Source: Calonectria ilicicola (Eukaryota > Ascomycota > Sordariomycetes > Hypocreales > Nectriaceae). From it: DNA of 64,000 nt. A program made the translations under genes and the position numbers. A model generated the notes under the pieces. The model saw nothing but the letters and a program-made list of their open reading frames with translations, searched no databases and was not told where the DNA came from. Below are positions 7,882 to 34,266 of the stretch, one piece after another. The stretch is from positions 8,060,001 to 8,124,000 of the forward strand of contig CP085825.1 of the NCBI GenBank assembly GCA_020809705.1, in the 5' to 3' direction. Numbering within the stretch: the stretch's first letter is position 1; the number at the start of each line of letters is the position of its first letter.

Positions 7882-8270
7882 AGATAGGCAAACGCCACTG
7901 CATTTTGCTACTGAAAATAGGTAGGATGCCATTGTTGCAATACCTGTCGAGGCGAGTGCTGATAAAGATGTCCAAGATGGACGCGGGCGGATGCCACTGC
8001 ATCTCGCTGTCAAAAATCGGCAGGATGCCGTTGTTGCAATGTTAGTCGAGGCGGGTGCCGATAAGGATGTTCAAGATGAATATGGACGGACGCCGCTGCA
8101 TCTTGCTGCTGAAAACGGGCAGGATGCCATTGTTGCAATGTTAGTTGAAGCGGGTGCTGATAAAGATGCCCAAGATGGACGCGGGCAAACGCCACTGTAT
8201 TTTGCTGCTAAAAACGGACAGGATGCCATTGTTGCAATGTTAGTCGAGGCGGGTGCTGGTCATGTTAAAA
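7650..8270 (+). repeat. 99-bp tandem ankyrin-encoding repeats
   Basis: About six consecutive 33-codon units are highly similar in DNA sequence, with recurring ACGCCxCTGCAT and GTCGAGGCxGGTGC blocks every 99 bases. The flanking ankyrin units are more diverged, which suggests recent expansion or homogenisation of the central units. Confidence 0.8.
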
Positions 8271-9270: not shown

Positions 9271-10872
9271 ATGGTATTCAAAGTCATCATCGTTGGCGGC
9301 AGCGTGTCGGGGTTGTCTTTAGCCAACATGCTTGAGAAGTTCGACATCGACTACATCCTTCTTGAGGGGCATTCAACAATTGCTCCTCAGCTTGGTGCTA
9401 GTCTTGGGCTTCTCCCAACTGGCTTACGCATTTTGGACCAACTCGGTTGCTACGAGCAAATTCGGGCAATGGCCGGAGATGTCTACTATCAAACGAGCAT
9501 GCGTTTGTTTAGTGGGAAGACTTGGGTTGACACGAAGCCCGTCACTTTTTCCGAGAGGTTGGAGGAGAGGTACGTATTCAGATCAACTCTGGAGGAAACA
9601 GATTCGTATCTGAATCCTACTAACACATTTGCGTAGAATCGGGTATCCTCAAATTTTCATCGATCGTCAGACAGTTCTTCAAGTACTTTTCAGCAAGATC
9701 AAATTCAAGGACCGAATTTTGACCAATAAGCGCGTCACGCAAGTGGATTTGGCTGAGGATCAAGTTACAGTTCATACACAGGACGGGTCTGTGTATGTGG
9801 GAGATATTGTTGTAGGCGCCGATGGCGTTCACAGTAAAGTCCGAGAGGAAATGTGGCGTAATTCCCATGAAGCTAATTCTGGTCTGTTCCGATTGGATCA
9901 AATTTCTGGTTCGTAATTGCGGTTATCTGCAAAGACTAATCCAATTCCTTACCGTTAATCTTTTGATCATTTTACAGGACTACAATCCGAGTCAAAATGT
10001 ATATTTGGCATATCTAAGCGGCCTGCCGGGCTACCTACTACCGCCCTGCAAATCAATGCGTTTTTTAAAGACTGCAACTACATGATGCTCTCTGCTCCCG
10101 AGGATCGAATCTACTGGTTTATGTTCACAAGCATGGACAAAGCATATGGTAAAGACATCCCTAGATTCACCAAGGAAGATGAACTGCGTCTTGCAGAGCA
10201 GCATTTCCATGACCAGATCAACGGCGCAACGACCTTTCAGAGCATATACAACAACAGGCTGCATACTACACTCGTGGCTCTTGAGGATCATGTGTTTCCA
10301 CGCTGGCATTACCGGAGAATTCTCACGATCGGAGATGCTGCTCACAAGGTATGCAAAACTCGAAATTTCTGAAATTTTTCAGGGCTAACTGTTCCAAATA
10401 GGTACACCCTATTAGTGCTCAGGGAGGCAATAGTGCTCTGGAAACCGCTGCTGTCCTGGTCAATATGTTGAGGCAGAAGATGAAGGCTGAAATTTCCAAG
10501 GAGAGGCTGACTGAAGCTGACATTGAGAATGTATTCGCTCAAGTGCAGGCAAATCGCATCCATCGCACTGAGGGTGCGGTGAACCAGGGTCGTCGAACGA
10601 CTTCAGCCTCCATCAAAGAAACCCTCTTCTCACGAATTTTTGTTGATCATTTTTTTACACGCTTTGGGCAACGCTTAATCTTCAGCCTCATAGTCAAAAA
10701 CACCGAGACTGGGCCTACGATAGATGGCATTCCTGTGCCAGCAAGGTACGAAGAAGCGATTTTACGCCATAAAGCAAATGAGTACAGGAGTAGTTGGGTG
10801 CTGTGGAGCCTTGGGTTTGTTGGGGCTGGAATTTTGGCCATCATTATATATTCAGCCGTGAGAAATATGTGA
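9271..10872 (+). CDS. FAD-dependent monooxygenase, PaxM type
   Basis: Exons 9271-9569, 9637-9908, 9978-10348 and 10402-10872 join in phase and give 470 residues. It has the GGSVSG dinucleotide-binding motif at 9-14, the GADGVHS motif near 160-166 and the GDAAHK motif near 309-314 followed by a GGNSALE stretch. These are the three fingerprints of class A flavin monooxygenases. A single hydrophobic helix near 444-466 fits a C-terminal membrane anchor, as in the PaxM-like epoxidases/hydroxylases of fungal indole-diterpene and meroterpenoid clusters. Such enzymes use FAD and NADPH to epoxidise a prenyl chain or hydroxylate an aromatic ring; the substrate cannot be read from sequence. No prenyltransferase or terpene cyclase lies in the window. 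The start ATG (CCACCATGG context) sits directly before the FAD-binding strand. Confidence 0.88.
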
Positions 10873-11392: not shown

Positions 11393-14048
11393 TTATACTT
11401 GGAAAGAAGAATTGGTGCCGGGATCCTGCAGCAATTCAATTGATGCCTGATTATTGTATAACCAGTCCTCCAATTGTGCCCCATTGCCCATCAATAGCAC
11501 TGGATTTACTAATTGCTGTTCGTCAGGAAAGATGTTGGCAATCATTTCTGTGTCATGATTATCCTGGAAACCCATTGCATTACCACCCTCATGTGAACTT
11601 GGCTGCTTGCAATGTTGCTGGTGGTGAACTTCATATATTCCTGCGTATGGGAATCCCAACACGGCAAGATGGGCTTCCATAGTAGATGTAGCCATTTCCT
11701 GGATCTCATGCGATACGGAAATGCTAGGCTGAACATAGCGAAGTGCAATGTTATAAAGTACTTGGAAAAGGTTGTGCATCTTGGCGGCGGGTTCTGAGAT
11801 GGCAGATGCGGATTGAATTGAGGCAATGAAAGCATCGAGACTGTTTAGATCTGTGTGACTTCGAGTCTCCATTACGTGACAAAATAAGACAATGAAGGGG
11901 ACAAAGGGAGCGAAGAGGAGGGTCCTAGGTACGTGAAAAGTGAGTGAGAAGTGGCTTTGCAGGTAATCTGGCGCACAACATACAAATGGATATATGCCTG
12001 AAAGTAGATGTCGTTGGTCTTGTGTATGATTGCCATGCAGTCATGATGCCTCTCTAGTGTAGCTCTAGCTACTTTGATGCAATCGGAGCTGAAAGTTGTA
12101 GTGGAACTTGTAATTCTCGGAGCAGCCCTGTAGACGTGAGTTAGGAGAGACAACCTGAGGATATCATCTGATATGGCGTAGAAGTCCATTAGGTCCTCCC
12201 CTGAATTTTTCTTTGAGATTTTGAGCCATAGATTCTGCACATAGGATTAATGATTACTTGCTTCAGAGATGCGGCTTGATGACGCAGCTTACATGCGTTC
12301 TTTCAGTTTCTTTTTGAAGTTCATGTAAACTCGACACTAAAAATTCGACTCTGGATTGCCGTGTAGAATCTGACTGGTTCAAAGAACCCGGACAGTACAG
12401 CATCTCGTATATTCTACCCTGGCATTTTGCGGCCTTGATCCATAAAACAAAGTAAGCTAACACAGGCTCTTGATTGTGTTTTGTTATCGAGAGGAGACTG
12501 GAAGTAATCTCGCAATCAGGAATCGTCGAGGCTCGGCCTAGACGAAGTGATAGACTCTTGTCAAGGTAATAAGTAGTCCAAAAAAGAAATTGTTGATACT
12601 TTATCTCCTCCGGCTTGTTATTACTCGTAGTTGAAGCTCGATGGTACCCCAATGTCTGGCACAATTCCGATGCCTTTGACGATAACATCCAGCAAAGAGC
12701 GGACTTTGAGGACTCCATAGCGTAAAATGCCTGCAATCTTGTCAGCATGAATATTAAAATTAAGTTTGGGTCTAGGTACACCGAAAAGTAGTGCAGCGAT
12801 TGAGTTTGAGGTTGCTGGTAGGTGAAGTGGTAGATTAGCCAGCTCAGTTTCGAGGTTCTCACGGCATAAGTGAGAGTATACAGTGTACTCGTCTTTTTCA
12901 TCTTGTACAATGTTACCTACACACGCGTAATCCGAACACAAGGAATAAAGACCGGCGTTCACACTGATGATGTCGAAAGAAGAAGGGTTCTCCCGGAAAT
13001 AAACGTCAAGACAGAGGTCTCCGAAAGCCTGCATCGTTTGAAACTCGTAGATCCATCCGGTGCCGGCAAGGCGTTGGCCTATGTATCAACGACGTGAGCT
13101 TGAGATGTATAGTTACTGATATTTTAACACCATGGACTCACTTTTGGCGATGCGGATCAGGGACACAGCCTTCTGAATAGGAGGCAGCTTGCACCTCTCC
13201 TGCTGCACACGGGCCCTTGGCCTTGCATAAAAGTAGGATGCCTCATATTCGCTCTGGTTCTGCTTCGAGGCGTTGACAATCTGGAAGAGTGCGTCAAGAG
13301 TTTGATGAGTTTCCAAGTCTGGATTTTTCAGACATTCTGCCCCGTCAAAATTCTGCAGGAATTCATTTACAAAGATGGAGTGCGCTGATAGCGATGACTC
13401 CCCTTCTACGACCGGTCCAGTAACAGAGGTTGACGGGACCGAATGGTGGGGGGAGGAATTGATGGTGGACACAACTGTGGCTGGGGTTGAGTCTTCGTTT
13501 CGCGGCTTATTGTTGTCGTTATGGGCCGAAATATGTGTGGCAAGCCCCCCCAGCAGCTTAGTGATGTCTTCAAGCCGATGGTCAATGCGGTCAATTTTTT
13601 TCTCACTGCATAATGATGGAATTGTCAAAGAGAGTATTCTAAAAAGCGTCTCCAGGAGCATGCAGTAGCTATGAAAACAATTGAAGGCAAACGTACTACT
13701 GAGGAGTGAGGAGAATGCGCGTCCGTTTTTCCTTGGGCGCTCTGGCTTCATTAACGCAATCAATATCGGCACGTTGACAGTGGGAGCACGGAGATTCTCG
13801 ATCACAGCGGATCTAACGTGGTGTAAGCATTGGCAATCAATTGGATAGTGTGGGGCTAGCAATGGGCGTACCTTGCGAGCACGGCAGGCTTCGCACTGCT
13901 TTGACGTTAGACTCGACGTAGTTGAGACGGGGAAGAAGGGGCTGACAGCTCTGCGAATGGGAAGAATCGAGTTGGGAATCTGTACTGGTGGCATAGACGA
14001 CCCAGGGGCCTCTTCGCAGTCGCTCGCAGCGGCCTGCATGTCATCCAT
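11393..14048 (-). CDS. Zn2Cys6 transcription factor with fungal-specific TF domain (regulator 1)
   Basis: Seven exons on the minus strand (13872-14048, 13700-13812, 13142-13605, 12780-13078, 12293-12730, 11984-12234, 11393-11924) join in phase to 757 residues. The binuclear zinc cluster lies at about residues 52-78 with spacing C-x2-C-x6-C-x5-C-x2-C-x6-C, split by an intron after CRARK. A short coiled-coil-like linker (EKKIDRIDHRLEDITKLL) follows. The middle region carries fungal_trans hallmarks, including a segment near AFYAMESSKSALCW and an LCQTLGYHR motif. It presumably acts in the nucleus as a dimer on CGG half-sites. Its place beside the MqnA-like gene suggests a pathway-specific role, which is inference. 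A non-ATG frame extends upstream; ATG 14048 was chosen, with 14039 as an alternative. Confidence 0.82.
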
Positions 14049-14477: not shown

Positions 14478-15329
14478 CTAGATTATCTCAGAAACAAATG
14501 TAGGACTATATACGTCGCTAGTTGTATGTTTGCGAAGTAGTTCAATAAATTTCCCAATTCCTCTCTTTTGGTCGAGGCCAAGAGAGTAGTGAATGTGTCT
14601 GCCCAAGTATTCTTTGCGAAACTCTTGTGAATATTCGGGACGTTCACGAACCACACTGTCCAATGTGTCCAACCCATACCGCCGTGCTGCTGTTAGCCGT
14701 TGACGCAAAGCAGATGTTTCTATCCCTCGTCGTAGAACCCAGACAGCAAATACAAATGGCAGGCCTGTCATATCCACCCAGGCTGACCCTAGGTCAAGAA
14801 TTCCATAGCTGCAGCTGTGACTGCTAAGGATGAAGTCTATTGCTGGGTCACCGATCAATAGCACAAAGTCTGGCAAGACACTGAAATCGTAGCTAGAGAG
14901 CGGCTTGAACTCAGGCTTTAGCCCACGCTCGGCTAGGATTACTCTCAAAAGATTAACGCTAGTGAGCGAGGCAGTATCACAATAGACCTCGCGTACTTGC
15001 TCAATCGGCTTGTGATGTGCCAGTATTACGCTCTTTACTTCTCCCAGCGTACCAATGGCTGTGCCGTCCAAAATATGATAATCGTCGTGAAAGAGAGCTT
15101 CGGCGATACTGACAAGCGCGGCGTCCAGCTCGTTGTTGCGCAACATTCTGGCGAGTGTCGAGGGCTTATCGAACAAGATCTCGTTCTCAAGACCACGAGT
15201 AAGTGGTGCAGCATTGAGGTAGTGAACAGCCCCAATACGCAAAGGTACAAGATCTATAGCGCGCGAGGCATCATGCTTGGCTGTAATGCCATCGGATGAT
15301 TTGTGATACGCAGCCACAGAACTACCCAT
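14478..15329 (-). CDS. MqnA-family protein (chorismate dehydratase-like, bacterial type)
   Basis: One intronless frame of 283 residues starts at ATG 15329. It matches the MqnA/MqnD (VitK2_biosynth, PF02621) pattern throughout: RIGAVHYLNAAPL at 31-43, a PSTLARMLRNNELDAALVS stretch, LGEVKSV, an S-x-TSVNLLR segment, a LLIGDPAIDF motif, and DLGSAWVDMTGLPFVFAVW near the C-terminal half. Length is normal for MqnA. In bacteria MqnA dehydrates chorismate to 3-[(1-carboxyvinyl)oxy]benzoate, the first step of the futalosine menaquinone route, which fungi are not known to have. The lack of introns in an intron-rich neighbourhood fits horizontal acquisition. The first 30 residues are not obviously a targeting peptide. 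Some family members are substrate-binding proteins or MqnD, so the exact reaction is unproven. It is flanked by regulator 1 and a CoA-ligase-type gene. Confidence 0.85.
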   Translation of the reverse strand: MGSSVAAYHKSSDGITAKHDASRAIDLVPLRIGAVHYLNAAPLTRGLENEILFDKPSTLARMLRNNELDAALVSIAEALFHDDYHILDGTAIGTLGEVKSVILAHHKPIEQVREVYCDTASLTSVNLLRVILAERGLKPEFKPLSSYDFSVLPDFVLLIGDPAIDFILSSHSCSYGILDLGSAWVDMTGLPFVFAVWVLRRGIETSALRQRLTAARRYGLDTLDSVVRERPEYSQEFRKEYLGRHIHYSLGLDQKRGIGKFIELLRKHTTSDVYSPTFVSEII

Positions 15330-16636: not shown

Positions 16637-18578
16637 ATGGCCAAATTTCCATGCGACCCTATTCTCATGGGTCTTCTTGAGGCATCGCGGGGGTCTCATG
16701 ACACTAGAGTTATTATCCATGATGTGAACGGCTTCGAAAAGTCGTACCCAGAACTGCTACAAGATATCCTAAGCACTCGTCGACTTTTCTGTAAAAAGTT
16801 ACCCTCACTTGCGCTGGACGGGAGATCCGTTTTGCGTGAGGCTTATAGAAACGTGGCAATCCTATCGCGCAGCGCCTATGAATTTCTTGTCGCATTCTTC
16901 GCTATCCGAGCCTTAGGCGGTGTATGCGTACCGTTAGGTATGTATTTCCATGGCTACGGGTGAGAAGTCAAATTGAACTTTTTCTAGCTTCTGGAATTCT
17001 TGCTGAAGAAGCATTGTATTTTCTGAAGAAAGCTAAGTGCATCTGCATGCTATCAGGGAAAGACTGCTTGGAGAAGGCAGGGGCCATATATGAGAAAATC
17101 CTGGAGGATGGTTGTGCAGAGGGATTCTTTTCATCCACAATTACGTCAGATGCTACAGTCCAGAGCCAGGTGATGATCGATATTGACGAAACTCTCCAAA
17201 TGGACCCAAATGAACCGGGCCTTATTGTGTACACATCTGGTACAACTGGACGCCCCAAAGGTGTAGTGCTTCCACGGTGTTGCTTAACCATCTCAGGTGC
17301 TCCAAAGTCATGCGGTGCTATTGTTAATTACCGCCCGTTCCATTGGATGGGTGGCATGCTTGCTCTAGTTTCTGCGGTGCTCAATGGCAAGAGAGTTTAC
17401 CATGTAGGGGAGGATGCAGGCGCCGAATCCGTCCTTGCGGCCTTCAAAAACCACCAAATTACTGACGCCACTTTTAATCCGGCCCTGCTTCGGAGGATGA
17501 AGGAGGCATTGCTAGGCCAAAATGGACAATTGTCAGAAATCGACCGGGAGAAATATTCCAGTTACTTTAAAAGTTTGACAAGAATTAGATGTTCAAGCGC
17601 AACGCTAGACTGGTCAACGAGGCGATTTTGGATCGACTTGACAGGCCTACCAATCCAAAATGCCTACGGAACGACAGAATTGGGATGTGGAGCAATGGAG
17701 ACGGAACCGTCCGCATCAACTTCAACAAGTGAAGAGGTGCGTTGTCGTTACGAGAACGCATAATGTTTTTCTCCGTATTCTAACTGGAAGCCTTCAGGTT
17801 GCTATTGGATTCCCGATGGCTGGCGTCAAAGTTAAGCTGTCAGAAGGGAACCATGGGGAGATTCGCATCAAATGCCCAAATATGCTCTTGTGGTATGTTC
17901 ATAATGTCGTCCTGGAAGCCCTTAGTGCCCTAGACGCTAATTCTATCCTCATTCTACAGTTACCTGGATGATGAGAAGTCAACAAAGGCTGCGTTTGATG
18001 AAGATGGGTATTACAAGACAGGTGACCTGGGCGAACTGAAAGATGGCCAATGCTTTTTTTCAGGCCGAGCAACTTCAGACTGTGGGTGTCGAATCAGGGA
18101 TGGCTGAATCGAGCTTAAACTAAATAAGATCGCAGTTATTCTATTTCGAACCTTGCGGATCCCGATACTGAGGGTTGAAAATGCGTTGATGGATCTTCCA
18201 TACATCACGGAGGCCTGTGTCGTCGCATTGCCGCACAAAGAGGCAAGGGAACTTTGTGGGGCAGTTGTTAAAATTAACAAGACACCCACCGCACAACCCA
18301 ATTTAGCCAAAATCCAGTCCGATCTTCAGGATCACCTTCCCTTTTTTATGATGCCACTTGCACTACGGCTCATGAATAGTGGAGAAGAACTATCGCGCAA
18401 TGCCTCGGGGAAGTTCATAAAGAAGCGGGTTTTGGAGGAGTTTTTCAACGTTAGAGACTGGTTTTCAACCGATGACTTGTTACCGGGCGTGGAATTTAAT
18501 GGTAGCATCGTACCCAAACTGATTGAAAGTGGACAGAAGCCATGGGAATGGGGTGGTATACAAAGAGCTAGCGATTGA
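16637..18578 (+). CDS. AMP-binding acyl/aryl-CoA ligase-type enzyme
   Basis: Exons 16637-16937, 16988-17736, 17798-17892, 17960-18081 and 18136-18578 join in phase to 569 residues. ANL-superfamily core motifs are present: YTSGTTGRPKG near 182-192 (phosphate loop), NAYGTTE, YKTGDLGEL and the C-terminal ASGKFIKK with the catalytic Lys. These enzymes adenylate a carboxylic acid with ATP and usually transfer it to CoA. The protein is a standalone ligase with no carrier domain or peroxisomal SKL end. The substrate is unknown; next to an MqnA-like enzyme, an aryl carboxylate derived from chorismate is an attractive guess but only inference. An earlier in-frame ATG at 16604 exists, but 16637 better fits the family's start and follows a CAG that may end a 5' UTR intron. 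Confidence 0.85.
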
Positions 18579-19449: not shown

Positions 19450-21078
19450 ATGGCTCAAAAGACATTCAGGGTAAACTATGGACTCTTTACCAGTTAATCT
19501 TAACTAAAATTCCCTTTTTTAGGAATCGATTGAGTTATTGAACTCCTTGCAAAGCAATGCAAGCGCAAGAAAAGATGCCACAAATGCGACTACAGAACAG
19601 CGCCTTCAACGGTTCAGACTATACTCTGACATCTTGAATGAATTAGGATATATAGTGAGACGATTGAAAAAGATAAATATTCTACGCTTGCATGCTGATA
19701 AGATTAGCCTAGCGATTTCAATAAATTGAACATCATTCACATTGCCGGATCCAAAGGTAAAGGATCAACAGCAGCGACTACAGCATCTATTCTGTCCCAG
19801 TTACTATCAACAGATCAAACACCTCGGAAAATCGGGGTGTTTACTTCTCCACATATTCGAACCATCCGAGAACGTATACAAATCATTTCTGGCCCAGTGA
19901 CTACGACCTCCGACTGGATGATTTCTGAGAATCAATTTGCAAAATACTTTTTCGAAGTTTGGGAAATTCTTCACGAAAAACATAGGAAGGGTATTCTAAA
20001 AAAGCTACCAACCTTTTTTCAGACCCTGTTTTTCGTTGCAATCCACGCCTTCATGCGTGAAGGAGTGGATGCTGCAATTATCGAATGCGGCATTGGAGGA
20101 GAACGCGATGTTACCAACATACTCGACACACCTGTAGTCAGTGCTATTACCACTTTGGAACTGGAACACACAGACCTTCTTGGGGGAACCCTGAAAGAAA
20201 TTGCATGGCACAAAGGCGGAATCATGAGGGCCGGTGTCCCGGCATTTACGATTCCTCAGCAGCCTGAAGCGCTTCTCGAGCTACAAAATCGAGCCGCTGA
20301 AAAGGGGACCAAACTAACTGTTGTGGACCCTAAAGATCTAACTGGCACATCTGAATTTTACAGTGAGATGGAAGGGTGGCAAGTGGTCAACTCTGCCATG
20401 GCCAGGCAACTTGCATTCACGTTCCTTGACACGCTGAGTAGGAAAGGTTTCAACGATTACCCAGATGCCGAGTTCGAACATCATGTTCAAAAAGGAGTTA
20501 GGGACGCAAATATCGCTGGTCGTTTCGAGATACGAAGCATCGGTTTGAGTGAATGGTATCTCGATGGTGCTCATACTCAAGGGACCATACAGAAAGCTGC
20601 CCAATGGTTTGCTTCCAAATGCCAGAGGAAACCAATAGACTTGAGAATCCTCCTATTCAATCAAGAAGGTAGAGAAACGGCACCAATGCTGTCGCTTCTT
20701 CACCAAGAGCTTTGCCGAGGTAAAGACACGACGCGCCTGACTCATGCGCTTTTCTGTTCAAATGCACCGTTTGCAGTGAACCAATTCAACCTTGAATCTG
20801 AATCCATGGTCAAAAAGGCTGAAGGAACAGAAGTTTGCCTTGATCCAGAGAATTACCAAACTAAGAATGCCAAGCTGTGGGAGGATGTTGCTCAAAGTTC
20901 AGATCAAACAGTCTTAACATTCCCCACCATTAGAGATTGTGCTGAGTACATAAGAGGGGAAACTGTAGCGAAGCAGAGAACAGCGGCTTGTTTCGTGACT
21001 GGCAGTCTACATTTAATCGGTGGAATGGAAGTTGTGCTCGATCTTCTGGCTAAGGATCCGTCTAACTGCTTGGTCTAG
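19450..21078 (+). CDS. Folylpolyglutamate synthase-like ligase
   Basis: Exons 19450-19470, 19523-19654 and 19708-21078 give 507 residues, a normal length for fungal folylpolyglutamate synthases. It has the P-loop GSKGKGST at about 65-72, ECGIGGERDVTN, a LGGTLKEIAWHKGGI segment and YLDGAHT, all Mur-ligase/FPGS hallmarks. The family uses ATP to add glutamate through the gamma-carboxyl to reduced folates. In this neighbourhood it could be an ordinary extra copy, a glutamyl-ligase acting on the cluster product, or a spare target for an antifolate-like product; the sequence does not decide. The first exon is only 7 codons. The second intron uses GTGAGA and a TTAG acceptor that restores PSDFNKLN before the P-loop. 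Confidence 0.85.
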
Positions 21079-21455: not shown

Positions 21456-23770
21456 ATGGATACTCTAAAAAGTACTAGTTGAAAGCTTCTGGCTATATGA
21501 GCTATATTAATTGTTACTAGGAGGTCTAGTGCCCAGGCGGAAACGAATGTCCCACGCTTGTCAACAGTGTCGTTCACGCAAAGTGAAATGCAATGGCCTC
21601 AATCCTTGTGAAACCTGTTGGCGACATTGTATTTCTTGCACTTACACCGATTCCACCAACCGATCTCGAGAGTCACTTCAGCCTCAAAATGGGAGCACTG
21701 CAGATACCGACTCAGAGTCAACCACTACCATTTCAAGTAACCAGGCCTCGCGTTGTGTAGCAGCAGGATACGACCCAGAGCAATATCGTCGTCAATTGGA
21801 GTTGCGGGCTGGGATTGGCGTCTCAAACAGTCAGGCTGGGTCGTTCCAATTTTTCGGTGAGCTCCATGACCCCAAAGCAGTCTCACAAGTTGTAACCCTA
21901 ACTTTCTGACCACTACAGGCCCTTCCTCTCATTTCTGTTTCATTCAGCGCATTTATCAGCGAATGAATAAACAAACCAATGCCACTCTTCTGGCGAAACA
22001 GAACAAGGCCGTCCCAGATGGTCTAGAAAAATGGGGACTTGAACATTTTATGTTCGCTGCTGGAGCGGATTCCCTTCACTCTTCGAATGCTTTGACCGAA
22101 GCATTTTTACCAAAGAAAGTTGGCCATGAGTTTATTGATGCCTACTTCTACATAATTCATCCCCATATGCCAATCCTCAGTCAGAATGTCATTACTGGTT
22201 TATGGGAGCAGTGTTGGGAGGCACCTACGCCGAATAGAGAAATGAAGTGGAAAGATGTGCTATACATGGTTCTAGCTTTGGGAGCCCGAACAATTTCCCG
22301 CGGGGCCGGTAGAAGTATCGAGGAGCTAGATGGCTGGGCGGATTACTTCTGGAGGCGTTCAAATCAGTTGCTGACTCTTTTCCAAGAATCGAGCCTCCAA
22401 GGCATCCATCTGATGTTATTGAAGGTTGGTAAAGTCTCCTACTCTTTGCGTGTAATATATTGATCCATGATTATTACATTAGGCAATGTACGCTTTGCAC
22501 GGAATGCGGCCCAATGATGCATATTTATATCTGGGTCATGCTACCCGTAGTGCTCTTGCATTGGGTCTTAACCGAAGTCAAGTTGCTAATGGCAGTGGGT
22601 CAACTATGCATCGTCTTCGTGTCACATTCTGGTCAGTGTACTTTTATGAGCGCCTCTGTGCCTTTTTTACCGGTCGTCCATCGGGCTTCCTGGATGCTCA
22701 TATTGATGTTGCTTACCCTGAAGATCTTAATTTGGGTAGCACATCTATTTCGAAAGGCTCAACGGAAACAAAGGGCCCAACAGCTGACTGCGCTTTTCTG
22801 AGAGCAATGGCCCACCTTGGAAAGATGACGGAGAGAATTTCTAACGGCATATACTCCCTCGCCAACCTTCAGACCTTGTATGATCAAAGAAACGTCCAAA
22901 TAATAATCGACGAGTGTGACCAGTCGCTGGAGGTACTCATGAAGAACCTGCCACCCTACTTGCATTTCTTCGACAATGATCTCACTATGGGGTCTTCATG
23001 GCAAGAAATCCAGCGGACTCACGTTGGCCTGGCATTTCATCTTATTAAAATGATGGTCCATCGACCGGCTCTCGTATACTCGAGCTTCTTTGGGGATATC
23101 AAAGATAAGCAAGGGCAAGATGGTGAATCGATTTCCCTTGAACGATCGATTGATGCGTCAATCGGATCGGCTAGAGAAATTATTGAAATTGCCAGGGTCG
23201 CAATCTTTGATCGCGCACCTTGCATAAGGAACGATGCTTCCATCGCCAATTACATCATGGCCGCTACCGTCACGCTGTTGTACAACGTGCTTAGTGCCTC
23301 AGCGACAGCGGATGGTGCTCGCTCCATATTTAAGTCCGTGGAACACAGTATTCACTGTCTAGATCAGATGGAACATAGGGGCCCCATTGCCGGGAAAACG
23401 CTCAGCATGGACATCATGAAATGTGCCAAGGATGCATTGGTGCTATCCAACAGCGATGTGCACCTGGAACAAGATCTGGCAGCCGATTTTCCATGGCTAA
23501 AGTGAGTCACCCAGTCTATAGCAATAAGGTGAAAGCATCTAATTTGTATCCTACAGCGAGGTCTTTGGCTCAGAAACTCCAGTTCAGTCGGCTGAAGCAA
23601 TTGGCCAGCCAATCGCACCCAACTTCGACGTCGCCCCGCCGATGGTTTCTTCCATGACGGTAGGCGACGCTAATGACTTTCTGTCAGCAAGGGTACGTGG
23701 AGTGAATTACAAATCATATTGGTTCAATGGCGACTCGAGTGATTTGGATTTTCTAGACACGTCGTGGTAG
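21456..23770 (+). CDS. Zn2Cys6 transcription factor with fungal-specific TF domain (regulator 2)
   Basis: Exons 21456-21471, 21521-21856, 21919-22424, 22483-23501 and 23557-23770 join in phase to 696 residues. The zinc cluster is at residues 19-45 (C-x2-C-x6-C-x5-C-x2-C-x6-C), preceded by a basic RRKR. After a low-complexity Ser/Thr linker comes a FFGPSSHFCFIQRIYQR segment, and the fungal_trans domain follows (HGMRPNDAYLYLGHATRSA, then a FYERLCAFFTGRPSG stretch). The first exon is just 16 bases; without it the protein would start at ATG 21547, four residues before the first zinc Cys. It lies between the FPGS-like and ABC transporter genes, all on the plus strand, so it may regulate them; this is inference from position. 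Confidence 0.85.
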
Positions 23771-24274
23771 GGAAAGAAAGGTCCGCTATTTGCTTGCGTC
23801 CTATCTGATAAGGCCTTTGATTAACAGATGGCGAAGCGATGGCTTGACCCACTCAGGCCGGAATTTAATGCCCTATGGTGTCCGTAGTGCTCGGCAGATT
23901 TCTAAGCTCTTGATATACGAGCCAATGAGAGCGCCCCGTATCTCCGAAACGGCTCGGCAAGTGGGAAGCACCTTAGAAACACATTTGTATTCCTCCGAAG
24001 ATCTAAAAAAAAAGCAGAATGCTTAAGTAATAGAATTCTTTTTTTTTCAGTTTTTTTTTCAGTATTGATAGCAATAAAAATTGTACAGCCCCTAATTGGA
24101 ATTTCCTACCTTTATAAATATGCTCTTGGTTAACAGGAGAGCCTGGCTTGGATCACCTTGTCCATTATCATTCTGATTCAAAGAGGATCGATCTGACCCA
24201 ATCAATATATCACGATCAAATAATCATCTACCGCCAGGCTTGACTCATTCCGATACAATGGTAATCGGATTTTC
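23771..24274. promoter_or_regulatory. Intergenic, promoter of ABC transporter
   Basis: About 500 bases with TATAAATA at 24113-24120 and T-rich tracts. An ATG at 24258 lies just upstream of the transporter frame but out of phase with it. Confidence 0.45.
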
Positions 24275-27200
24275 TTGGCCAATGATTCAGACAAGTTTGC
24301 TAACATATGTGCGAAGACAGAAAAACCCAATACCAGCTCAATTCGACACACAACTGCCATATATCGCGATCAAGGACGCTCGCTAGGTGTTGTGTATGAA
24401 AATGTGGATGTGCTAGGTCTCGAACCGGGAGTCAATGGCATCTTGACGCTGCCAATGGTATTTGCAAAACTCTTGCAATGGCCGAAGATCATTGTCAGTC
24501 AAATGACAGGCAATAATGACAAAGCCACCAAAAAAATTATTTGTAATGCAAACGGGGTTGTATTTCCGGGTGAGACAATGCTCGTACTTGGAAGACCCGG
24601 ATCTGGTACTTCAACATTGTTGAAGGTACTTGCCAATAACCGTGATTCATTTGAAGAGGTTCAGGGTCGTGTGGAATACGCTGGTATATCTAGTCACGGT
24701 ATGAGGCACAGGTTTCGGTCAGAAACTGTCTATACAAGCGAAGACGATATACATTTTCCGACGCTTCCTGTCAAGGATACAATAGGGTTCGCATTTCGGC
24801 TGCGGAAGCCCGCTGACGAGCATCTGACAGATTCAGAATTTGCCCACGGAATGACAGAGGCCTCGCTAAAGTCTCTCGGTCTTTCTCACACCTCAAAAAC
24901 CATTGTTGGTGATGCTTTTGTTCGCGGGGTATCAGGTGGCGAGCGTAAGCGTGTTACTCTTCTTGAAGCGCTTTCAACGAACCCGGCTATCGCATCCTGG
25001 GACAACCCGGCTCGTGGACTGGATAGCTCGTCTGCTACTGAATTTGCCCAACTAATACAGTCTATATCGAAAGCAACTGGCATGGCCAACATTGTGTCTA
25101 TGTATCAAGTCTCGGAGACTATTTACGAATGTTTCGATCGGGTTACCGTGCTATACGATGGATATACCATCTTTTGTGGAACAGCTGCCGACGCCAAAGC
25201 CTACTTCATCAACCTAGGTTTTGAGTGTCGCAGCCGTCAAACAACGCCCGATTTTATCACATCTGTGACTTCATCCACCGAGCGTCTGATTCGACGAGGT
25301 TTTGAAGACGTTGTACCCACGGATCCGAAGGGTTTGGCAGAGGCATTTAGTAGTAGCACCGAATTTGGCCGCCTGACAGAGGACATTGAAAAATACAAAA
25401 ACATTGTCTGCACAGATTCGGTAATGAAGAAGAAATTTTGCGAAGAAGCGCAAAGAATACGCTCTAGATGGGCTCCTCGATCGGCAATTGCACCTCGCAC
25501 ACTTGGTAAACAGATTTGGGCTGCTCTTATTCGTCACTATCAATTGGTTTGGGGGGACAAGAGGACTTTCTTTACCCTGATCTGTTTCAACATCCTTAAC
25601 GCAGTCATCAACGGTTCTTCTTATTACATGGCTCCAAAGGATGTTACCGGCTCATATGAAAAAAGCAGCGCCCTTTTCTTTTCCTTAATCTACTTTTACC
25701 TTAATGCACTCACCGAAGCGACATCCACGGTCAAGTCACGGCCTATCCTGCTGAAGCAGGTTCAGTATGGCTTTATTCACCCCAGCGCCTTTGTTATTGC
25801 TCAAACTATTGCTGAGATTCCTATTGCCTTTGTTCAATGCTTGATCTTCGCCTGTTGCTATTATTGGCAAATCAATCTTCAACGGACTGCCTCCGCATTT
25901 TGGATCTTTGTTCTTATTGTATTTACCCACTACTAGGCCGTTCAGAGTCTGTTTCGGATGCTTGGTGCTTGGTCACCAAATATCTCCCTCACATTGATGA
26001 TGGCGGGCAGCGCCATTCCAGTTGGATTACTCTATTCTGGATTTGGCCCGACAAGGCCTTCACAGCACCGCTGGGGGTCATGGTTGCGCCGAATCTCACC
26101 TTCTCCATGGGCCTTGGAGGCTCTGATGGGGAATGAGTTTTCTGGAATCACGCTGACGTGCTCCGATGCTGACATGGTCCCGTCAGGTGCTGGTTACAAC
26201 GACTCGCAGTACCAGACCTGCAGCATTACCGGCAGCAGTATGGGACGACGCTCAGTCGATGGGTCTGTCTATCTTGAGCACCACTTTGGGTTTACTCGGG
26301 CTCATCTTTGGCGCAACTTTGGCATTATTCTTGTTTTGTGGTTTTTGTATACCGTGATTGGTTGCGTCGGCCTTTCATTCATGACTCGCGACGGAAGCGG
26401 CCCTGGTAGTCGCGTATTCAAAACCTCAAAACAGCTTGACGAGGAAAATCAGCCACAATCTTCCAGCTCGTCGGTGACAGCGACGGTACCCGCCGATGAC
26501 GTGCCTACTGAGAATGATGAGGCCACAAGCTCCAGTACATTTACTTTCCAGAACGTTAGCTACTTTGTGGATGTTAGCGGAGAAGAGAAACAGCTTTTGC
26601 GAAATGTAAGTGGTTATGCAAAACCAGGTCAACTTACCGCCCTTATGGGCGCTTCTGGGGCGGGCAAAACAACGCTCTTAGACACTCTTTCGCAGAGAAA
26701 GAGCACTGGCCGGATCACCGGTACATTCCAACTAAATGGGAAGCCATTGGATGAGTCCTTTTCTCGGTCTTGCGGGTTTGTGATGCAACAGGATGTGCAT
26801 GAGCCCAATGCCACAGTTCGAGAAGCGCTTGAGTTCTCTGCCAGACTGAGACAGCCCCAGCACATCTCAGATGAATCAAAGATAGCATATGTTGAGCATG
26901 TTATTCATCTGCTCCAAATGGAGCCGATAGCTGAGGCTTTGATTGGGCAGCCGGGAGATGGGCAGCTCAGTGTGGAAGAGCGGAAGCGGGTCACCATCGG
27001 CGTGGAACTTGCGGCACGCCCGAGCTCTTTGTTATTCCTTGACGAGCCGACTTCCGGGCTGGATGGCCAGGCAGCTTTCGCTTTGGTCAAGTTTTTGCAG
27101 CGGATTGCTGCCGAGGGAATCCCAGTGGTTTGCACTATCCACCAGCCATCTGGCGTGCTTTTTGACATGTTTGACCATGTGTTGCTCTTGGCTCCCGGGG

Positions 27201-28450
27201 GCCAAACAGTATACTTTGGTGAGACTGGAGATAAAGCTTCTGTTGTGGCTGAGTATTTTAGCCGTTATGGAGCCACGATGGATCCCGACGAGAATCCAGC
27301 CGAGTTCATTCTCTCCACTGTCACAGTAAAGGGAGAGGGGTCCCTGGACTGGCCTGCAAACTGGAACGCATCGAGGGAATGTGTGGAGCTACAGTCCAAG
27401 ATATCACAGCTAAACTTGGCAGTGAAACAAGAGAATGATGAATTTCCAACTGATGGCACTAATCAGAACTCTTACGGCAAAGGCCAATTTGCATTATCGC
27501 TTCGGGCGCAGATAGCAGCAGTTACCCAGCGGCACTGGATATCAGTCTGGCGAGATGGCATGTATAATTTCAGCAAAATTGCCAAATCGCTTTTTGTGGA
27601 AATGTTCATAGCCTTTAGCTTTTTCAAAGTTGGAGGCAGTGTCCAAGGGCTTCAGAACAATATGATTGCAATCTTGCTACTTTCGTGGATCATCCCTTCG
27701 ACCTGTGCAGATGTGCAGGATATCTGGTTCCGCAAATGGGACATTTTCATGGCGCGAGAAAAGAATGGCATTTACGACTGGAGGGCGTTACTGTTTGCAT
27801 TAGTTATCGTTGAGATTCTGTGGCAACTGGGTACATACTCCCTTATCTTCCTTGCCACATATTGGACTGTTGGATTCCCAAACATTACTGCAATTTCGGG
27901 ATTCAATTATTTCATGTGGCTTCTCTTGGGCATATTTGGCACCGGATACTCGCAACTGCTGGCAGCAATGTTCCCAAACACGTTGATGGGAGGGTATGCC
28001 AACTCCTTGTTTTGGGTCATTCTCATGGTATTTTCGGGTATGCTCACTCCGCATTCTTACATGAACTCTTTCTATCGCCCTTGGATTTTTTGGGCGGACC
28101 CTATGCGCTATTTTTTCGGTGCCACTGTTGGGACAGTCTTGCATGATGTTCGCGTCAAATGCGAGCCGAGTGAGTTGACCGTATTTCAGCCTCCATCCAA
28201 CCAAAGCTGCCTGGAATATGCTCAAAGTTTCCTTGATGAAGCGACGGGGTATCTTCTTAATCCAGATGCAAAGGGAAAATGCGAGTATTGCCAGTATGCA
28301 GGTGGCGATGACTACTTGCAAACCTTGGATTATGCATTTCATGAACGTTGGTGGAACTGGGCTGTATTCCTTGGTTTTTGTTTATCTAATTTCGCTCTTT
28401 TGTATGTTGTCGTGGGTTGGACAAAGGGTAGACACCAACGTCGCATGTAA
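24275..28450 (+). CDS. PDR-type (ABCG) multidrug transporter interrupted by an in-frame TAG
   Basis: One frame runs from 24275 to 28450, broken only by a TAG at 25934-25936. The two parts (553 and 838 codons) are otherwise continuous: ...VLIVFTHY, stop, AVQSLFRMLGAW. The first nucleotide-binding domain has GRPGSGTSTLLK, VSGGERKRV and WDNPARGLD. The second has GASGAGKTTLLD, LSVEERKRV and LFLDEPTSGLD. Two membrane domains follow the NBDs in the reverse (NBD-TMD)2 order of full-size PDR pumps, and a NANGVVFPGE segment precedes the first Walker A. Such pumps export drugs or secondary metabolites through the plasma membrane. The frame lacks an ATG before the conserved LGVVYENVDVLGL; the nearest ATG (24258) is out of frame, so the N-terminus may also be damaged or misread. 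It may be a pseudogene, a read-through gene, or carry assembly errors. Confidence 0.8.
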
Positions 28451-29091
28451 ACTCTCAAAAGGTGGTGTAAGTAATGGAGGGCAGATACACATGCATTCAA
28501 TAACTTTGCTTTGTTGTAATTTACCTGGGTAAGGAAAACCACCTTTTAAAGTCGGAGTAAATCTTTTTAATTTTTCAGTATTTTATTTAATGGTCTAGGG
28601 TAGCACACTCTTGGCTTGGGTGGCATTTTGTTGTCACTTTGCACAGACCACACTGCCATATTGCCCCGCTGCATCGCCACAGCGCAAGAGCCCACGCTAA
28701 GTTAGTTAATGCCCCGAATTCCCGCGGGATTTCAATCGTTCGTGCTCCTAAACCAAACTTCAATCCAATTGTTTTCTGGTGTTTTTTTTTCTCAACCAAC
28801 TCTCGGAATTGAAAAATGGCTGCTTGCATGATGTCCTGTTTTGTTTATTAGTTAGATTGGGCCTTCTCTTCAAATACATGCGCTGAAATATTGAAGCAGA
28901 ATAACCAAAGCTCAGCAAGTTTTTAAGTTTTAGCACCGGCGAGTCAATCACTAAGCGGGCAATATGCAAATTTCCGAGGTAAAGCCCGAAAACCCGCGAG
29001 CCATAAGGGGAGCATACTCCCAAGCCCCTCGGCGAAAGGGCTGCATTCGACATTGGCCCTATCCACAACTACCGGGCGTTTCCTCATCGAA
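28451..29091. promoter_or_regulatory. Intergenic, promoter of regulator 3
   Basis: This region lies between the ABC transporter 3' end and regulator 3, both on the plus strand. It contains a perfect TCCCGCGGGA palindrome at 28720-28729, about 360 bases upstream of the regulator start. No protein-like frame is visible. Confidence 0.5.
28720..28729. promoter_or_regulatory. TCCCGCGGGA palindrome
   Basis: This 10-bp perfect palindrome contains two inverted CGG half-sites, the form many dimeric Zn2Cys6 regulators bind. Near-identical sites occur upstream of the aldehyde dehydrogenase and between the LinD-like and SnoaL-like genes. Confidence 0.45.
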
Positions 29092-31594
29092 ATGGACTCA
29101 GCGACTTCTACAATTGACTCGGCTCCGGCCCAAACTCCGGTCCTTTCATCCAACCAGAGAACCGGGCTCAATCGGACGACGAAACCCAGCAAGGCATGTG
29201 TTCCTTGCAAAGCACGCAAAGTAAAATGCAACGCAGCATTGGTGGGACTTCCTTGCGGTAGCTGTGTTAGCAAAGAGTGCACCGAACGCTGCGTCTTGAC
29301 GGTTCGCAAACGTCGAAAGCGGTATGTGTTTTTTTGCAAGGTGATTCAAGGATTTGCCTAATTTGGGTTGCTTCAGAGCTGTTGCACCTATTATACAGTT
29401 GCCATTATCCGATAGCATACAAGAAGTGAAGTTGGGTCCAGCAAGAACCGTAAGTCCCTTTTCAACCATTCACTCCGTATTCCACACACCTATCTCGTTT
29501 TTTTTTAAGACACTTTCATCTTAACTATTGCTCGCCCGTAGGCTTCCCCACAAGCTCATTGTTCCGTGGAAAGTGAGCACTCAACGCAAGACGTAGGGGC
29601 TACGACCACCATTTGTGAAGCCAATTCTCCCCCCCAGCATCATATTTTAGACCCTTCAGTCAGCGAAGGCCCCCAACAGTGCCGCACTGACCTGCATTAC
29701 CTCACTATATTATCAGATGCAATGAGTGATGCCGATACATCATCCAACTTATCTGATGGGCCGACTCTTAGCATTTCTGCTGCCACAGGAGCTGAGTGCA
29801 ATAGGGCTACTAAACCGCCATTGTGTTACAAGCCAAAGCAAATGGATCCCGTTGACTTGGAATTTCTTTCCAAAAAGGGAGCTTTTGACATACCTCCTAA
29901 GCGCTGCGTGTATTTTTCCCTGCCCCCATTCCTAATCTGTTGCATATGCAAATGCTAACATACAACAGAGACGCACTCCTAAAGATCTACTTTGTGTATG
30001 CTTACCCTTACGCCCCTATTCTCGACCGAGTAGACTTTATGCAAAGTTATATGCAGAGTAACTATTCACTGTTCCTAATGCACGCTGTACTTGCAACTGC
30101 TACACTATATGCGCCCGCAGATATCTTGTCCGAATGTGGGTTCCAGGATCGATCCACCGCTCAAGAGTCCTTCTATTGCAAAGCGAACATGCTTTATGAC
30201 TTTCAGTACGAAACAAGTCTTTTGCCTATCCTGCAGGGATCAGTGATCATGGGAACGATTCTTCTTGACCGCGCCACTGATAAGGATTTTCAGTACTGGT
30301 TCCATAATTCATGCCGCGTCGCTATTAAGCTTGGTATTCATCATATGTAGGTACTCGGATACTTCTTGGTCCATCATAGACTGGGAGATATTAATTCAAG
30401 TAATAGTAATTCTCGAGAGGACAGCAATCGCAAAATAACGAAGATTTATAAAAGAATTTGGTGGCTTCTCCATGTGTGTTTCGCATCCACTAATCTCTTG
30501 TTTAAATATTACTGACCAATGTAAATCTGAAGTTCCGTGACATGCTTCATTCATTTGTCGGCTCACAAAACTTACGTTTTCTCAGTAAATTTTCTCGCAT
30601 CAAGCCTCTAAATATAGATGACTGGGAGATGGAGACTATTCCAGACGAATTTAAATTAATACTGTCACCTATTAGTAATAGGGAAAAGAATTTGTTCATA
30701 GAAACATGTGAACTAGGTCGGATCGGTATGTGGAACACAGCTCATCTGGCAATCATATTAATAACATTTGATAGGTGGACAGTGTCTGAGCATTGTTGAG
30801 GAAAATGACTCCAAAGACCCCATGCAATTAATGGGCTTACTTGACGCGTGGCGCTCATCACTGTCCAAGACAATGCAAGTTCCTAACCGATCCGAATGCA
30901 ATGATACGTTTAATGAAGTGTTACTTTCTCTGAGCTTTAGATTCGAAGCGGTACTGTGCCGTCTTGTTCGACGTCGATGGTTGCATAGGGACGCTGCCAA
31001 GACCAAATGGGCAGCGACAAGGCTCCGACAGGCAATATTTGAACTTGATGCCATCATATGGAGAATGCTACACTCTCAACGACTCGAAGGGCTTCCAATG
31101 ATTTTGTATGGCGCCATCTTACCCAACTACCGCGGAAATGAAATATTCAAATGCCTTTTTATACTAACTCGACATGCAGCACAACTACTATCCCGGTTTT
31201 GCTTGCATTTCACATAGAGACGGCCTTGGATAATTCCGAAACTGGTATTATTTATTCGGCATCAATAATATCCATAAACCAGACGATGTTGGTTATGCGG
31301 CAATTACGAGACATCCCGGCTATACAAAGAGCAATACCAGTTTTCGAAAAGATTATTTCAATAAAAAAACTCGACTCCATGCCCGGGCCAATTCCAATTG
31401 TTCACAACGATGGCCACCATCTGGATGATCGGCCACTAGAGCATGGACAACTCACAGCAGCCTCATTTTTGCAGCTGGAGAGTTCATTTTCACAATCCTT
31501 TTCAGGTGAACAGGCCACTTGGATAGAGGAATTATTGGGGCTTGACTTTATGGAGAGTTGGCAAATGGGAAATATGGTTTTAACTGATTTGTAA
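29092..31594 (+). CDS. Zn2Cys6 transcription factor, Ctf1/FarB-like (regulator 3)
   Basis: Eight exons are inferred: 29092-29321, 29377-29449, 29542-about 29905, about 29971-30346, 30401-30473, 30533-30725, 30775-31105 and 31180-31594. The zinc cluster at residues 36-67 has a long loop and a long last spacing (C-x2-C-x6-C-x8-C-x2-C-x8-C). That form is shared by Ctf1/FarA/FarB-type regulators of lipid and cutin breakdown. The later exons encode the fungal_trans domain (LLKIYFVYAYPYAPILDR, CRVAIKLGIHH, then KRIWWLLH). The junction after PPKR is a problem: the GT donor at 29908 with either AG (29968 or 29970) breaks the frame. Only a GC-AG intron (29906-29970) preserves it, so a one-base error or frameshift is possible. 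The gene runs toward the aldehyde dehydrogenase. Confidence 0.78.
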
Positions 31595-31839: not shown

Positions 31840-33608
31840 CTAGTTCACAACATTCTTGTTCAAAAATAAGGTCTGGACATTACAAAAGCCTTTTAATCCA
31901 TTCAGGCCCCATTCAGTGCCGATACCACTTTCTTTATGCCCACCAAATGGAGCTAAGGGTGATATGTCAAAATGATTGTTAATCCAGACACTTCCAGCTT
32001 GGATTTGTCTGGCCACTCTCTCTGCCTTTTTCAGGTCGTTGGTCCAAACCGACGCCCCCAGGCCCAGAACGGTATCATTTGCACGGGCTATTACATCTTC
32101 TTCATTGCCCCATGGAAGAATGGGCACAATTGGTCCTACCGAAAGTTTTTGTTAGAAAGAATCTAGAAAAAATAGACAGGTAAAGCATGAACACCATACC
32201 GAATGGCTCCTCCACAACGATGCGTGAGTCATCTGGTGGACTGTCAATAATAGTCGGGTTAACGAAATAGCCATGCGATTCTTGAATGCTCCCCCCAACA
32301 GCAACTTTCCAGCCTTCTGTTTGGATATCGTCGAAGAAGGTCTTGACTCGCGCAAATTGCATCGAATTTTGCAGTGGCCCATGGGTCGTGCCCTTTTCAG
32401 AACCATCTCCCAGCTTGTAGCTCTTGACATGCTTTACCAATGCTTCGCGAAAGTCATTGAAGATAGATTCATGCACATATATCCGCTTTAAATTTAGACA
32501 TATCTTGTTCAAGATTGTGTCAGTCGACTATTGTATTGCAGCATCAATAAATCACCTACCTGGCCAGAATTCAAGAACGCATAGAAGGCGATCTACATCA
32601 CATAAGCTTTCTATACATAACTTGGTATTCAAACACAAACCTGTTGAGCAACTTTGTCTATGTTGATGTCCGGGAATATGATTGCGGGGTCATTGCCGCC
32701 TCTGGTAGCGTATGAGCCAACCTCACACGCCCACTTGAAAGACGATCAACTCACAACTCAAGGGTTATCCTTTTCAATGTTTGGCTTGCACTTCGCATCA
32801 CGGCTTTTCCGGTATTTGTAGAACCAGTGAAACTAATCTTGTCGATTCCAGGATGACTCGTGATCCATGGTCCGAGATGGTCATCGCCGCTAAGGGATTG
32901 AACCACTCCAGGAGGGAAAAACTGTTGCGCCAGTTCAACCAGCTTAAGGCCACAGTATGGCGTAAAGGGCCTTTTTGGTCAATTCAGTTGCTGGAAATAT
33001 TTTGACAAGATTGAAAGTACTCACGACGGCTTGACAATAATAACATTACCTGCCAACAAAGCTGGTGCGATTTTCCCGGCTGCCAGAAGGAGCGGAAAAT
33101 TCCATGGGACCAGAGCAGCAACAACGCCAATGGGTGTGTATCTGGTTATCACTTTCCTGTGTTCATTATCTTCAATAATATCCTCTGGAAGCGTAATGTC
33201 TGCCATCTCTCTCATCCATCGAACGGCAAAGTGAGTTTCTGCATCTGCCTGGGGGATCTTGATTTCATCAATACATGAAAAACCACGCAGCACAAAGGTT
33301 TGGGCAGGTCTTACAGGCTTGCCTTGTTCAGAAACCAGCAAATCACTAAACTGACACTTGTATTTTTCCACGGCATTTGCATAGGCCACCACTGCACTAC
33401 GGCGATGGTCTTGAGGTACTTTGGACCATGCCTTGAAAGCTTCCTTGGCCACCGAAACAGCACGATCAACGTCGGCAATGGTGGCAACGGGAACTTCCCA
33501 GTTGGGCTTCAAATTGGCAGGATTAATGCCATGCCTTTGCTGCTCAGTCGGAGAAGACTTTGCATCAATTATTTGGATAAAGCTTTCCTCGAAATTCAGG
33601 TTGCTCAT
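31840..33608 (-). CDS. NAD(P)-dependent aldehyde dehydrogenase
   Basis: Six minus-strand exons (33025-33608, 32755-32970, 32641-32701, 32560-32592, 32200-32503, 31840-32135) join in phase to 497 residues, standard for the family. The catalytic Glu is at about 266 in TLELGGND and the catalytic Cys at about 300 in NSGQICLNL, 34 residues apart as in characterised ALDHs. PWNFPLLLAAGK and FTGSTNTGK form the cofactor-binding region. Exon 4 is only 33 bases (IAFYAFLNSGQ). It oxidises an aldehyde to a carboxylic acid in the cytosol (no targeting signal seen); the substrate is unknown. It is convergent with regulator 3, and its upstream region carries TCCCGCGGAA, a motif also found near the LinD-like and SnoaL-like genes. 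Confidence 0.88.
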
Positions 33609-34261
33609 GATGAAATCAAATTGAAGAAGTTGCTTAGGTGTCTTGGAGGAGTTTTCTACAAGTAGTGAGCCGTAAAGACATTTGAGTAAATGGGAGTTGG
33701 GGAAACGGTATCTATTTATTTTAACATCATACTTTGAGTTTGTGACTCTTTCCTGAACCAAGAACCTATTGTCGAGCCTCGGCTACTCAATAAACTTTTA
33801 TTCTTTTAGACTAATCAGGAATAGCAATGCAATGGAGGTTTGCGGTGGCGCCTTGTTGTCAGAGATCCCGTTGTCCAAATCCCGCGGAAATCTTCTTGTG
33901 GGCCACTTGATATCCAAGAGGCGGACCAACCAAAGCTCACCGCATTCATTCGTTCCTATTATATATAATTGATCAACATAAATGTGATATTGCTCCATCC
34001 CGAATTGCGGCATTAAAGTCACCACCGCTAGGTCGGACTTATGTGTAAACGGCATATTTAATTCACAGCATGTCAATAACAGGATATTATTTGGCCATTG
34101 GTATCTAAATTCGATAAATTTTCCAAACCCTCGACGAAAAAAAAGAATCCAGTCTTTGCTGGAGAAAATCCCTGTGCACGTGCTGATTTTGCCAATTACG
34201 CGATGGCTTATTAGTAATGCTGGCATAGAAAACTCCGCGGCATTATACAAAAAGCTCTTTT
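33609..34261. promoter_or_regulatory. Upstream region of aldehyde dehydrogenase
   Basis: About 650 bases between the dehydrogenase start and the retrotransposon. It holds TCCCGCGGAA at 33880-33889 and TCCGCGG at 34234-34240. A 150-codon minus-strand frame here begins at a non-ATG codon, has no family resemblance and is not called. Confidence 0.5.
33880..33889 (+). promoter_or_regulatory. TCCCGCGGAA motif upstream of aldehyde dehydrogenase
   Basis: Identical in all ten bases to the site at 44782-44791 in the LinD/SnoaL intergenic region, and close to the TCCGCGGA palindrome known as the yeast Pdr1/Pdr3 response element. It sits about 270 bases upstream of the dehydrogenase start. Confidence 0.45.
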
Positions 34262-34266
34262 TAAAA

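Follow-up and report, generated by a model that had tools for sequence, protein, structure and literature searches.

We consider it probable that the ascomycete Calonectria ilicicola carries, likely as the outcome of a single acquisition from a soil verrucomicrobium, a protein of the MqnA family whose predicted reaction is the dehydration of chorismate to 3-[(1-carboxyvinyl)oxy]benzoate, serving a purpose other than menaquinone synthesis. In bacteria, MqnA acts on chorismate, a major branch point of aromatic metabolism, which loses water and aromatizes to this same compound. The only role of MqnA known to us is to open menaquinone synthesis in bacteria and archaea. The gene, which we call mqnA, lies in a stretch of 64,000 nucleotides (the window) corresponding to bases 8,060,001-8,124,000 of a contig of 8,361,424 bases, less than 0.3 Mb from the contig end, in a genome of 69.9 Mb assembled into 12 contigs (Table 1).

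The mqnA frame runs from an ATG at 15329 down to a stop at 14478 through 283 codons free of internal stops, and it stayed open in none of 5000 base-shuffled versions. Its product begins with a fungal N-terminus of approximately residues 1-29, followed by a core that matches the Pfam family PF02621 over residues 30-266 and positions 1-251 of the 252 in the profile (E 1.7e-47), with a score of 162.5 bits against a curated cut-off of 26. The HMM search thus bears out the original prediction that the MqnA pattern extends from end to end of the 283-residue product. In an alignment of 39 rows, hand-picked from 127 MqnA rows, the core is colinear with the bacterial proteins, departing from them only by a 2-residue insertion (residues 172-173) and three extra C-terminal residues, and the N-termini of the fungal and bacterial proteins differ. 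Because the core aligns along the bacterial proteins almost gap-free, the gene needs no intron, and it is indeed a single exon amid split neighbors, as the sequence had initially suggested: the three neighbors that were modeled, encoding a ligase, a folylpolyglutamate-synthase-like (FPGS-like) enzyme and a monooxygenase, have 5, 3 and 4 exons, respectively, with all introns of the GT..AG type.

Comparisons with solved structures favor MqnA over its relative MqnD, which belongs to the same Pfam family. A phmmer search of the PDB recovers the chorismate dehydratases of Deinococcus and Streptomyces from 1.9e-20, and MqnD of Thermus (2czl) only at 0.063. The predicted model of the product has a mean pLDDT of 72.3, with the first 30 residues below 50, and its Foldseek ranks 1-20 are occupied by chains of Deinococcus and Streptomyces MqnA (E 2.6e-19 to 1.1e-13), including 6o9a with 3-hydroxybenzoic acid bound; identity over these 20 best structural alignments is 25-29%. 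MqnD appears at rank 22, and solute-binding proteins from rank 23 on, at 4e-9 and weaker. MqnD thus shares the superfamily fold but is a much weaker match, and sequence, fold and tree rule it out as the identity of the fungal protein, for which an assignment to MqnA (chorismate dehydratase) is supported by sequence and predicted fold. An NCBIfam scan of the product gave one meaningless match (E 0.052).

Table 1. Coordinates of mqnA and of the annotated genes around it, numbered from the first base of the window.
Feature	Position	Strand	Remarks
FAD-dependent aromatic-hydroxylase-type monooxygenase	9271..10872	+	470 aa, 4 exons; PF01494, hydrophobic C-terminus
Putative Zn2Cys6-type transcription factor	11396..14048	-	Fungal_trans in 12266-12916; adjoins mqnA
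mqnA, MqnA-family chorismate dehydratase gene	14478..15329	-	Single exon, 283 aa; predicted function
Adenylate-forming (acyl-CoA ligase type) enzyme	16637..18578	+	569 aa, 5 exons; divergent from mqnA
Ligase exons	16637-16937, 16988-17736, 17798-17892, 17960-18081, 18136-18578	+	Modeled
Folylpolyglutamate-synthase-like (Mur-ligase fold) enzyme, divergent	19450..21078	+	507 aa, 3 exons
Zn2Cys6 transcription factor	21511..23502	+	Zn_clus + Fungal_trans
ABC transporter	24224..28447	+	ABC_tran + ABC2_membrane in first ORF 24224-25933; second ORF 25937-28447
Zn2Cys6 transcription factor	28927..31591	+	Zn_clus + Fungal_trans
Aldehyde dehydrogenase	32105..33782	-	PF00171

The relatives of the product point to a bacterial source. 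Among the 120 matches listed, of 6210 at <=1e-3, six carry an organism name: two are fungal, Dactylonectria estremocensis (69% identity) and D. macrodidyma (66%), and four are bacterial MAGs, namely three Verrucomicrobiae and one Candidatus Angelobacter, a makeup unlike that of a widespread, vertically inherited fungal protein. Identity to metagenome proteins in the same list reaches 69%. One bacterial homolog, run against bacterial and archaeal genomes in a scan that reaches close relatives only, found six loci, all in verrucomicrobial MAGs titled Verrucomicrobia, Verrucomicrobiia, Limisphaerales or Pedosphaera; the window MqnA is 58-62% identical to the proteins from five of them and 48% identical to the sixth. 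All six of these genomes carry two genes of PF02621, of which the copy related to the fungal one scores lower (154-169 bits versus 238-255), the higher-scoring copy presumably being MqnD. In two of the six MAGs, the fungal-related copy lies directly behind mqnE on the same strand, which identifies the source family as the MqnA of the futalosine pathway. Most of the verrucomicrobial proteins (L008-L011 and the homologs listed) carry at the N-terminus a charged and conserved extension of about 40 residues, which the fungal versions lack.

In phylogenetic trees the three fungal proteins are monophyletic, with 99 SH-aLRT in a quick tree of 127 rows and 100/100 in a tree of 45 rows drawn from these. 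A rooted tree of 43 rows combined 23 of the 127 with 20 outgroup loci, a partial 21st being excluded; the outgroup was obtained by sampling 194 genomes belonging to the same phylum, 22 of which gave a match. Here the fungal clade (100/100) is nested among the soil verrucomicrobial MqnAs, of the Limisphaerales/Pedosphaera type, in a group split 99/99 from the outgroup. All three trees drew long-branch warnings from the programs, the bootstraps of the 45- and 43-row trees were unsettled, and the end branch of the window protein varies from 0.33 to 0.8 changes per column depending on the tree. A sister relationship with the pair P0041 and P0063 (89 SH-aLRT in the 127-row tree; AU p 0.78 in the 45-row tree) was dropped as a pointer to the donor, since it lacks resolution in the 45- and 43-row trees. 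With the fungal clade placed within verrucomicrobial MqnA, a single bacterium-to-fungus transfer is the simplest history, and the bacterial descent anticipated from the letters of the gene holds in the phylogeny. Hence, a fungal lineage likely acquired mqnA once from a soil verrucomicrobium; both one transfer into a fungal ancestor and one transfer followed by fungus-to-fungus passage fit these data, with MqnA having diverged by about 31-34% between the fungal lineages.

The partners of MqnA in the futalosine pathway were sought throughout the genome. Neither MqnE nor MqnC had a match in the fungus's own 69.9 Mb, in searches that for each of the two rang in 10 of the 14 control genomes, with 2 over the cut-off. 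There was likewise no second PF02621 (MqnD-like) gene in this genome, mqnA being the sole match in a search that rang in 4 of the 14 controls. The classical continuation after MqnA is therefore missing, and the initial impression that no other futalosine gene accompanies mqnA extends from the window to the whole genome for MqnE, MqnC and a second PF02621 gene.

The active site can be judged from the deposited variants of Streptomyces coelicolor MqnA, in which an Asn at chain position 18 is changed to Ser (7an7) or Asp (7ywc) and a Ser at chain position 87 to Ala (7an8). Asn39 and Ser100 of the fungal protein align with these two residues, which are the same in 39 of 39 rows and which we take to be Asn17 and Ser86 of S. 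coelicolor MqnA (SCO4506) in the numbering of the literature. At these positions, the loss of active-site residues against which the original prediction was to be weighed has not occurred. The Tyr changed to Phe in 7an9 (chain position 243) falls in the poorly aligned C-terminus, where phmmer pairs it with His245 and the hhalign alignment ends earlier. The window protein alters 6 of the 84 columns that are invariant in 36 bacterial rows, and the Dactylonectria proteins 6 and 7, versus 72, and 60 and 63, departures from the bacterial majority at 163 variable columns. Removing the divergent row L013 gives 107 invariant columns, 14 of them altered in the window protein, and 169 variable ones, at 89 of which this protein differs. 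The altered invariant columns include A93G and S94T, and also W244R if L013 is removed. Few changes at invariant columns as against many at variable ones are what one expects of a protein that remains under its old constraints.

These constraints bear on the alternative that survives best, namely, that the fungal MqnA kept its fold but drifted to another substrate, such as a different chorismate-derived or cyclic acid, with loss of the MqnA product. The fungal branches are long, such that the specificity could have shifted, and several fungus-specific changes fall in bacterially invariant columns; the failure of the genome-wide searches to find MqnE, MqnC or a second PF02621 gene would also agree with a changed reaction. 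We nevertheless regard such a drift as unlikely, given that 78 of the 84 invariant columns are retained together with Asn39 and Ser100, and that a number of the substitutions, namely two of L to I, one of A to G and one of A to V, are conservative.

If the fungal MqnA makes the expected product, a candidate to use it is encoded next door. The gene for an adenylate-forming enzyme divergent from mqnA is intact and its product has the adenylation motifs. Among the matches listed, its top two homologs come from D. estremocensis and D. macrodidyma (55% and 54% identity). In D. estremocensis, the ligase and MqnA are both on contigs of 1,523,266 bases, the linkage being read from equal size alone; in D. 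macrodidyma, both are on contigs of 1,538,279 bases, with locus tags 808570 and 808572. In a tree of 36 of the 120 homologs listed, the window ligase groups with those of Dactylonectria (99 SH-aLRT). That the top ligase homologs come from both MqnA-bearing Dactylonectria species, on equal-sized contigs, is good evidence for a pair that was probably kept, and mqnA and the ligase gene look like a retained module. Equal evolutionary rates, which we considered as a further sign of joint inheritance, form a weak argument, because the MqnA path from the window protein to Dactylonectria varies with the tree (1.37, 0.86 and 0.54 over the 127-, 45- and 43-row trees), the ligase path being 0.85.

Alternatively, MqnA could be active but unrelated to the adjacent ligase, the two lying together by chance and the product being used elsewhere, for instance as a free aromatic acid. 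Several paralogs of the ligase are present in the same genome and further members of its family in fungi in which no MqnA was seen, the FPGS-like gene further along is not common to Dactylonectria among the matches listed, and the pairing in D. estremocensis depends on contig size. Chance would, however, have to account for the two best ligase homologs coming from exactly the two MqnA-bearing species, on equal-sized contigs, and for the MqnA and ligase trees each giving the window and Dactylonectria proteins as a supported clade, and we rate this explanation as distinctly improbable.

The substrate of the ligase cannot be told from homology, since its nearest solved relatives are malonyl-CoA ligases/synthetases (8.7e-23), which offer no pointer to an aromatic substrate; these are followed by chimeras of such enzymes with benzoate-CoA ligase, and 2-succinylbenzoate-CoA ligases are found further down the list. 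It belongs to the same family as a set of fungal adenylate-forming enzymes, mostly of unknown substrate, that includes a protein annotated as AfeA in Trichoderma chlorosporum; among these, only the window and Dactylonectria members were seen with MqnA. AfeA of Aspergillus nidulans is described as a 4CL-like enzyme in conidiation (PMC4804170). The C. ilicicola genome itself holds about five further paralogs of the ligase (C5:375176-377056, C6:5268663-5270557, C2:1696424-1698323, C7:3556816-3558629 and C1:7235128-7237065), with pieces at 31-69% identity; some have stops within the six-frame match, which may be introns.

Two other neighboring genes are candidates, and only that, for tailoring enzymes. 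One encodes the FAD-dependent monooxygenase, which is nearest to tropone 2-monooxygenase and 6-hydroxynicotinate 3-monooxygenase, relatives that would suit an aromatic substrate. The other encodes the FPGS-like ligase, whose best relatives among the matches listed are from Hirsutella, Beauveria and proteins without an organism name. None of the 120 FPGS-like matches listed is named Dactylonectria, so conservation of a wider cluster is not supported. The Hirsutella FPGS-like gene is on a contig of 734,908 bases, away from the Hirsutella ligases on contigs of 452,379 and 240,912 bases. We therefore did not count the FPGS-like gene as a conserved partner, and from its distribution it may be a bystander. 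Other FPGS-like copies of the same genome, including two adjacent ones on C1, are at C1:2814997-2817721, C1:6515224-6516483 and C9:4025845-4026240, none of them exceeding about 42% identity to the window copy. At eight loci of the genome with paralogs of the ligase or of the FPGS-like enzyme, identity to the best of the listed proteins was 33-58%.

Beyond these genes, a Pfam scan of the window covered the mqnA product and 30 further ORFs or ORF pieces, yielding the regulators, transporter and dehydrogenase of Table 1. The Cys-rich N-terminus of the regulator that adjoins mqnA has no Pfam match, and its assignment as Zn2Cys6 was made by eye. No ORF of PKS or NRPS size was noted in the window or over the 30 kb to its left: the sole window ORF above 1000 aa encodes ankyrin repeats, and the ORF list for the left flank contains none above 600 aa. 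This long ankyrin-repeat protein (Pfam Ank; 4630-8764, plus strand), with repeats very similar by eye, adjoins the monooxygenase. On the other side, positions 34001-41000 form a block of about 7 kb with a GC content of 0.12-0.25, versus 0.41-0.44 in the flanks, which resembles the effect of repeat-induced point mutation on repeats. Past this AT-rich block lies a gene of the linalool dehydratase/isomerase (Ldi) family (PF18566; 41853-43470, minus strand), a family that is to our knowledge rare in fungi. At 51079-56697 (minus strand), about 36-42 kb from mqnA, are adjacent isopropylmalate-dehydratase-like (aconitase family) and isopropylmalate-synthase-like genes, with GC3 values of 0.70 and 0.78, respectively, unlike the other window genes measured.

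The composition of mqnA itself is that of its surroundings. Its GC3 is 0.468, within the range of 0.42-0.52 of seven other window genes or ORFs, versus 0.68-0.77 in four bacterial mqnA genes. A comparison of GC3 was among the checks proposed with the original prediction, and it shows a value like those of the locus and unlike the bacterial ones. Such local-like values indicate that mqnA has adapted to its locus, where composition alone would hide its origin. They also argue against bacterial contamination or mis-assembly, which the bacterial MAGs as nearest named non-fungal relatives among the matches listed might bring to mind. A contig of 8.36 Mb speaks against a stray bacterial piece, the neighbors bear introns, and the protein forms its own clade with those of two other fungal genomes; we reject contamination as having practically no likelihood.

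Two further readings concern what the protein does. It could bind or sense chorismate without catalysis, on a fold like that of periplasmic binding proteins, as this fold is common to the solute-binding proteins that enter the Foldseek list from rank 23 onward. Their matches are far weaker, however, at 4e-9 and beyond versus about 1e-18 for MqnA, and the Asn and Ser replaced in the deposited MqnA variants are retained, so that we judge this role very improbable. A complete futalosine route with menaquinone in this fungus, of which MqnA would be the first enzyme, is rejected for MqnE, MqnC and MqnD by the genome-wide searches, and with those searches ringing in 10, 10 and 4 of the 14 controls, we give it hardly any credence.

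Returning to MqnA as a chorismate dehydratase outside menaquinone synthesis, a course of reactions can be proposed. Cytosolic chorismate would enter the MqnA cleft, where, by analogy with the bacterial enzyme, loss of water and aromatization of the ring would yield a meta-substituted enolpyruvyl benzoate. The adjacent ligase would then likely activate the carboxylate of 3-[(1-carboxyvinyl)oxy]benzoate as an acyl-AMP or a CoA ester; alternatively, its substrate could be 3-hydroxybenzoate, formed after loss of pyruvate from the MqnA product. The unusual aromatic route from chorismate in a eukaryote that was envisaged for this gene would fit such a scheme, as far as it can be drawn from sequence. 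A broader idea, which we regard as possible and put forward tentatively, is that of a fungal aromatic branch in which a verrucomicrobial MqnA, cut from the futalosine pathway, feeds a co-inherited ligase to give an activated meta-substituted benzoyl unit, and with it a new class of natural products.

Compared with known systems, the fungal protein has in common with bacterial MqnA (EC 4.2.1.151; SCO4506 of S. coelicolor and DR0370 of D. radiodurans) the full-length PF02621 domain, the predicted fold and the Asn and Ser of the active site. Unlike them, it occurs in a fungus, where MqnE and MqnC were not found, with a local fungal composition and a different N-terminus. Bacterial chorismatases of the Hyg5/XanB2 type make a meta-oxygenated benzoate, 3-hydroxybenzoate, from chorismate, releasing pyruvate in the same step. 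Their product is similar, but they are of another family than the window MqnA. What seems new here is the setting: a eukaryote, pathway partners that were not found, and a fungal ligase apparently inherited with MqnA. Among the open-licence papers listed in our searches, none described an MqnA from a fungus or another eukaryote. A survey of 2014 states, in one sentence on Eukarya, that enzymes of the futalosine pathway are usually without homologs there (PMC3914697), and the accessible part of PMC10142127 makes no mention of chorismate or menaquinone.

The retention of the fungal MqnA through a divergence of about 31-34%, with MqnE and MqnC not found, suggests that its product is useful in its own right. 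The gene also represents a well-supported bacterium-to-fungus transfer with Verrucomicrobiota as the donor phylum, and we do not know this phylum as a frequent donor. For natural-product biology, one enzyme, one ligase and one predicted acid would offer a simple handle on a pathway, and a pathway of this kind is likely to be missed by cluster finders keyed to PKS, NRPS and terpene backbones.
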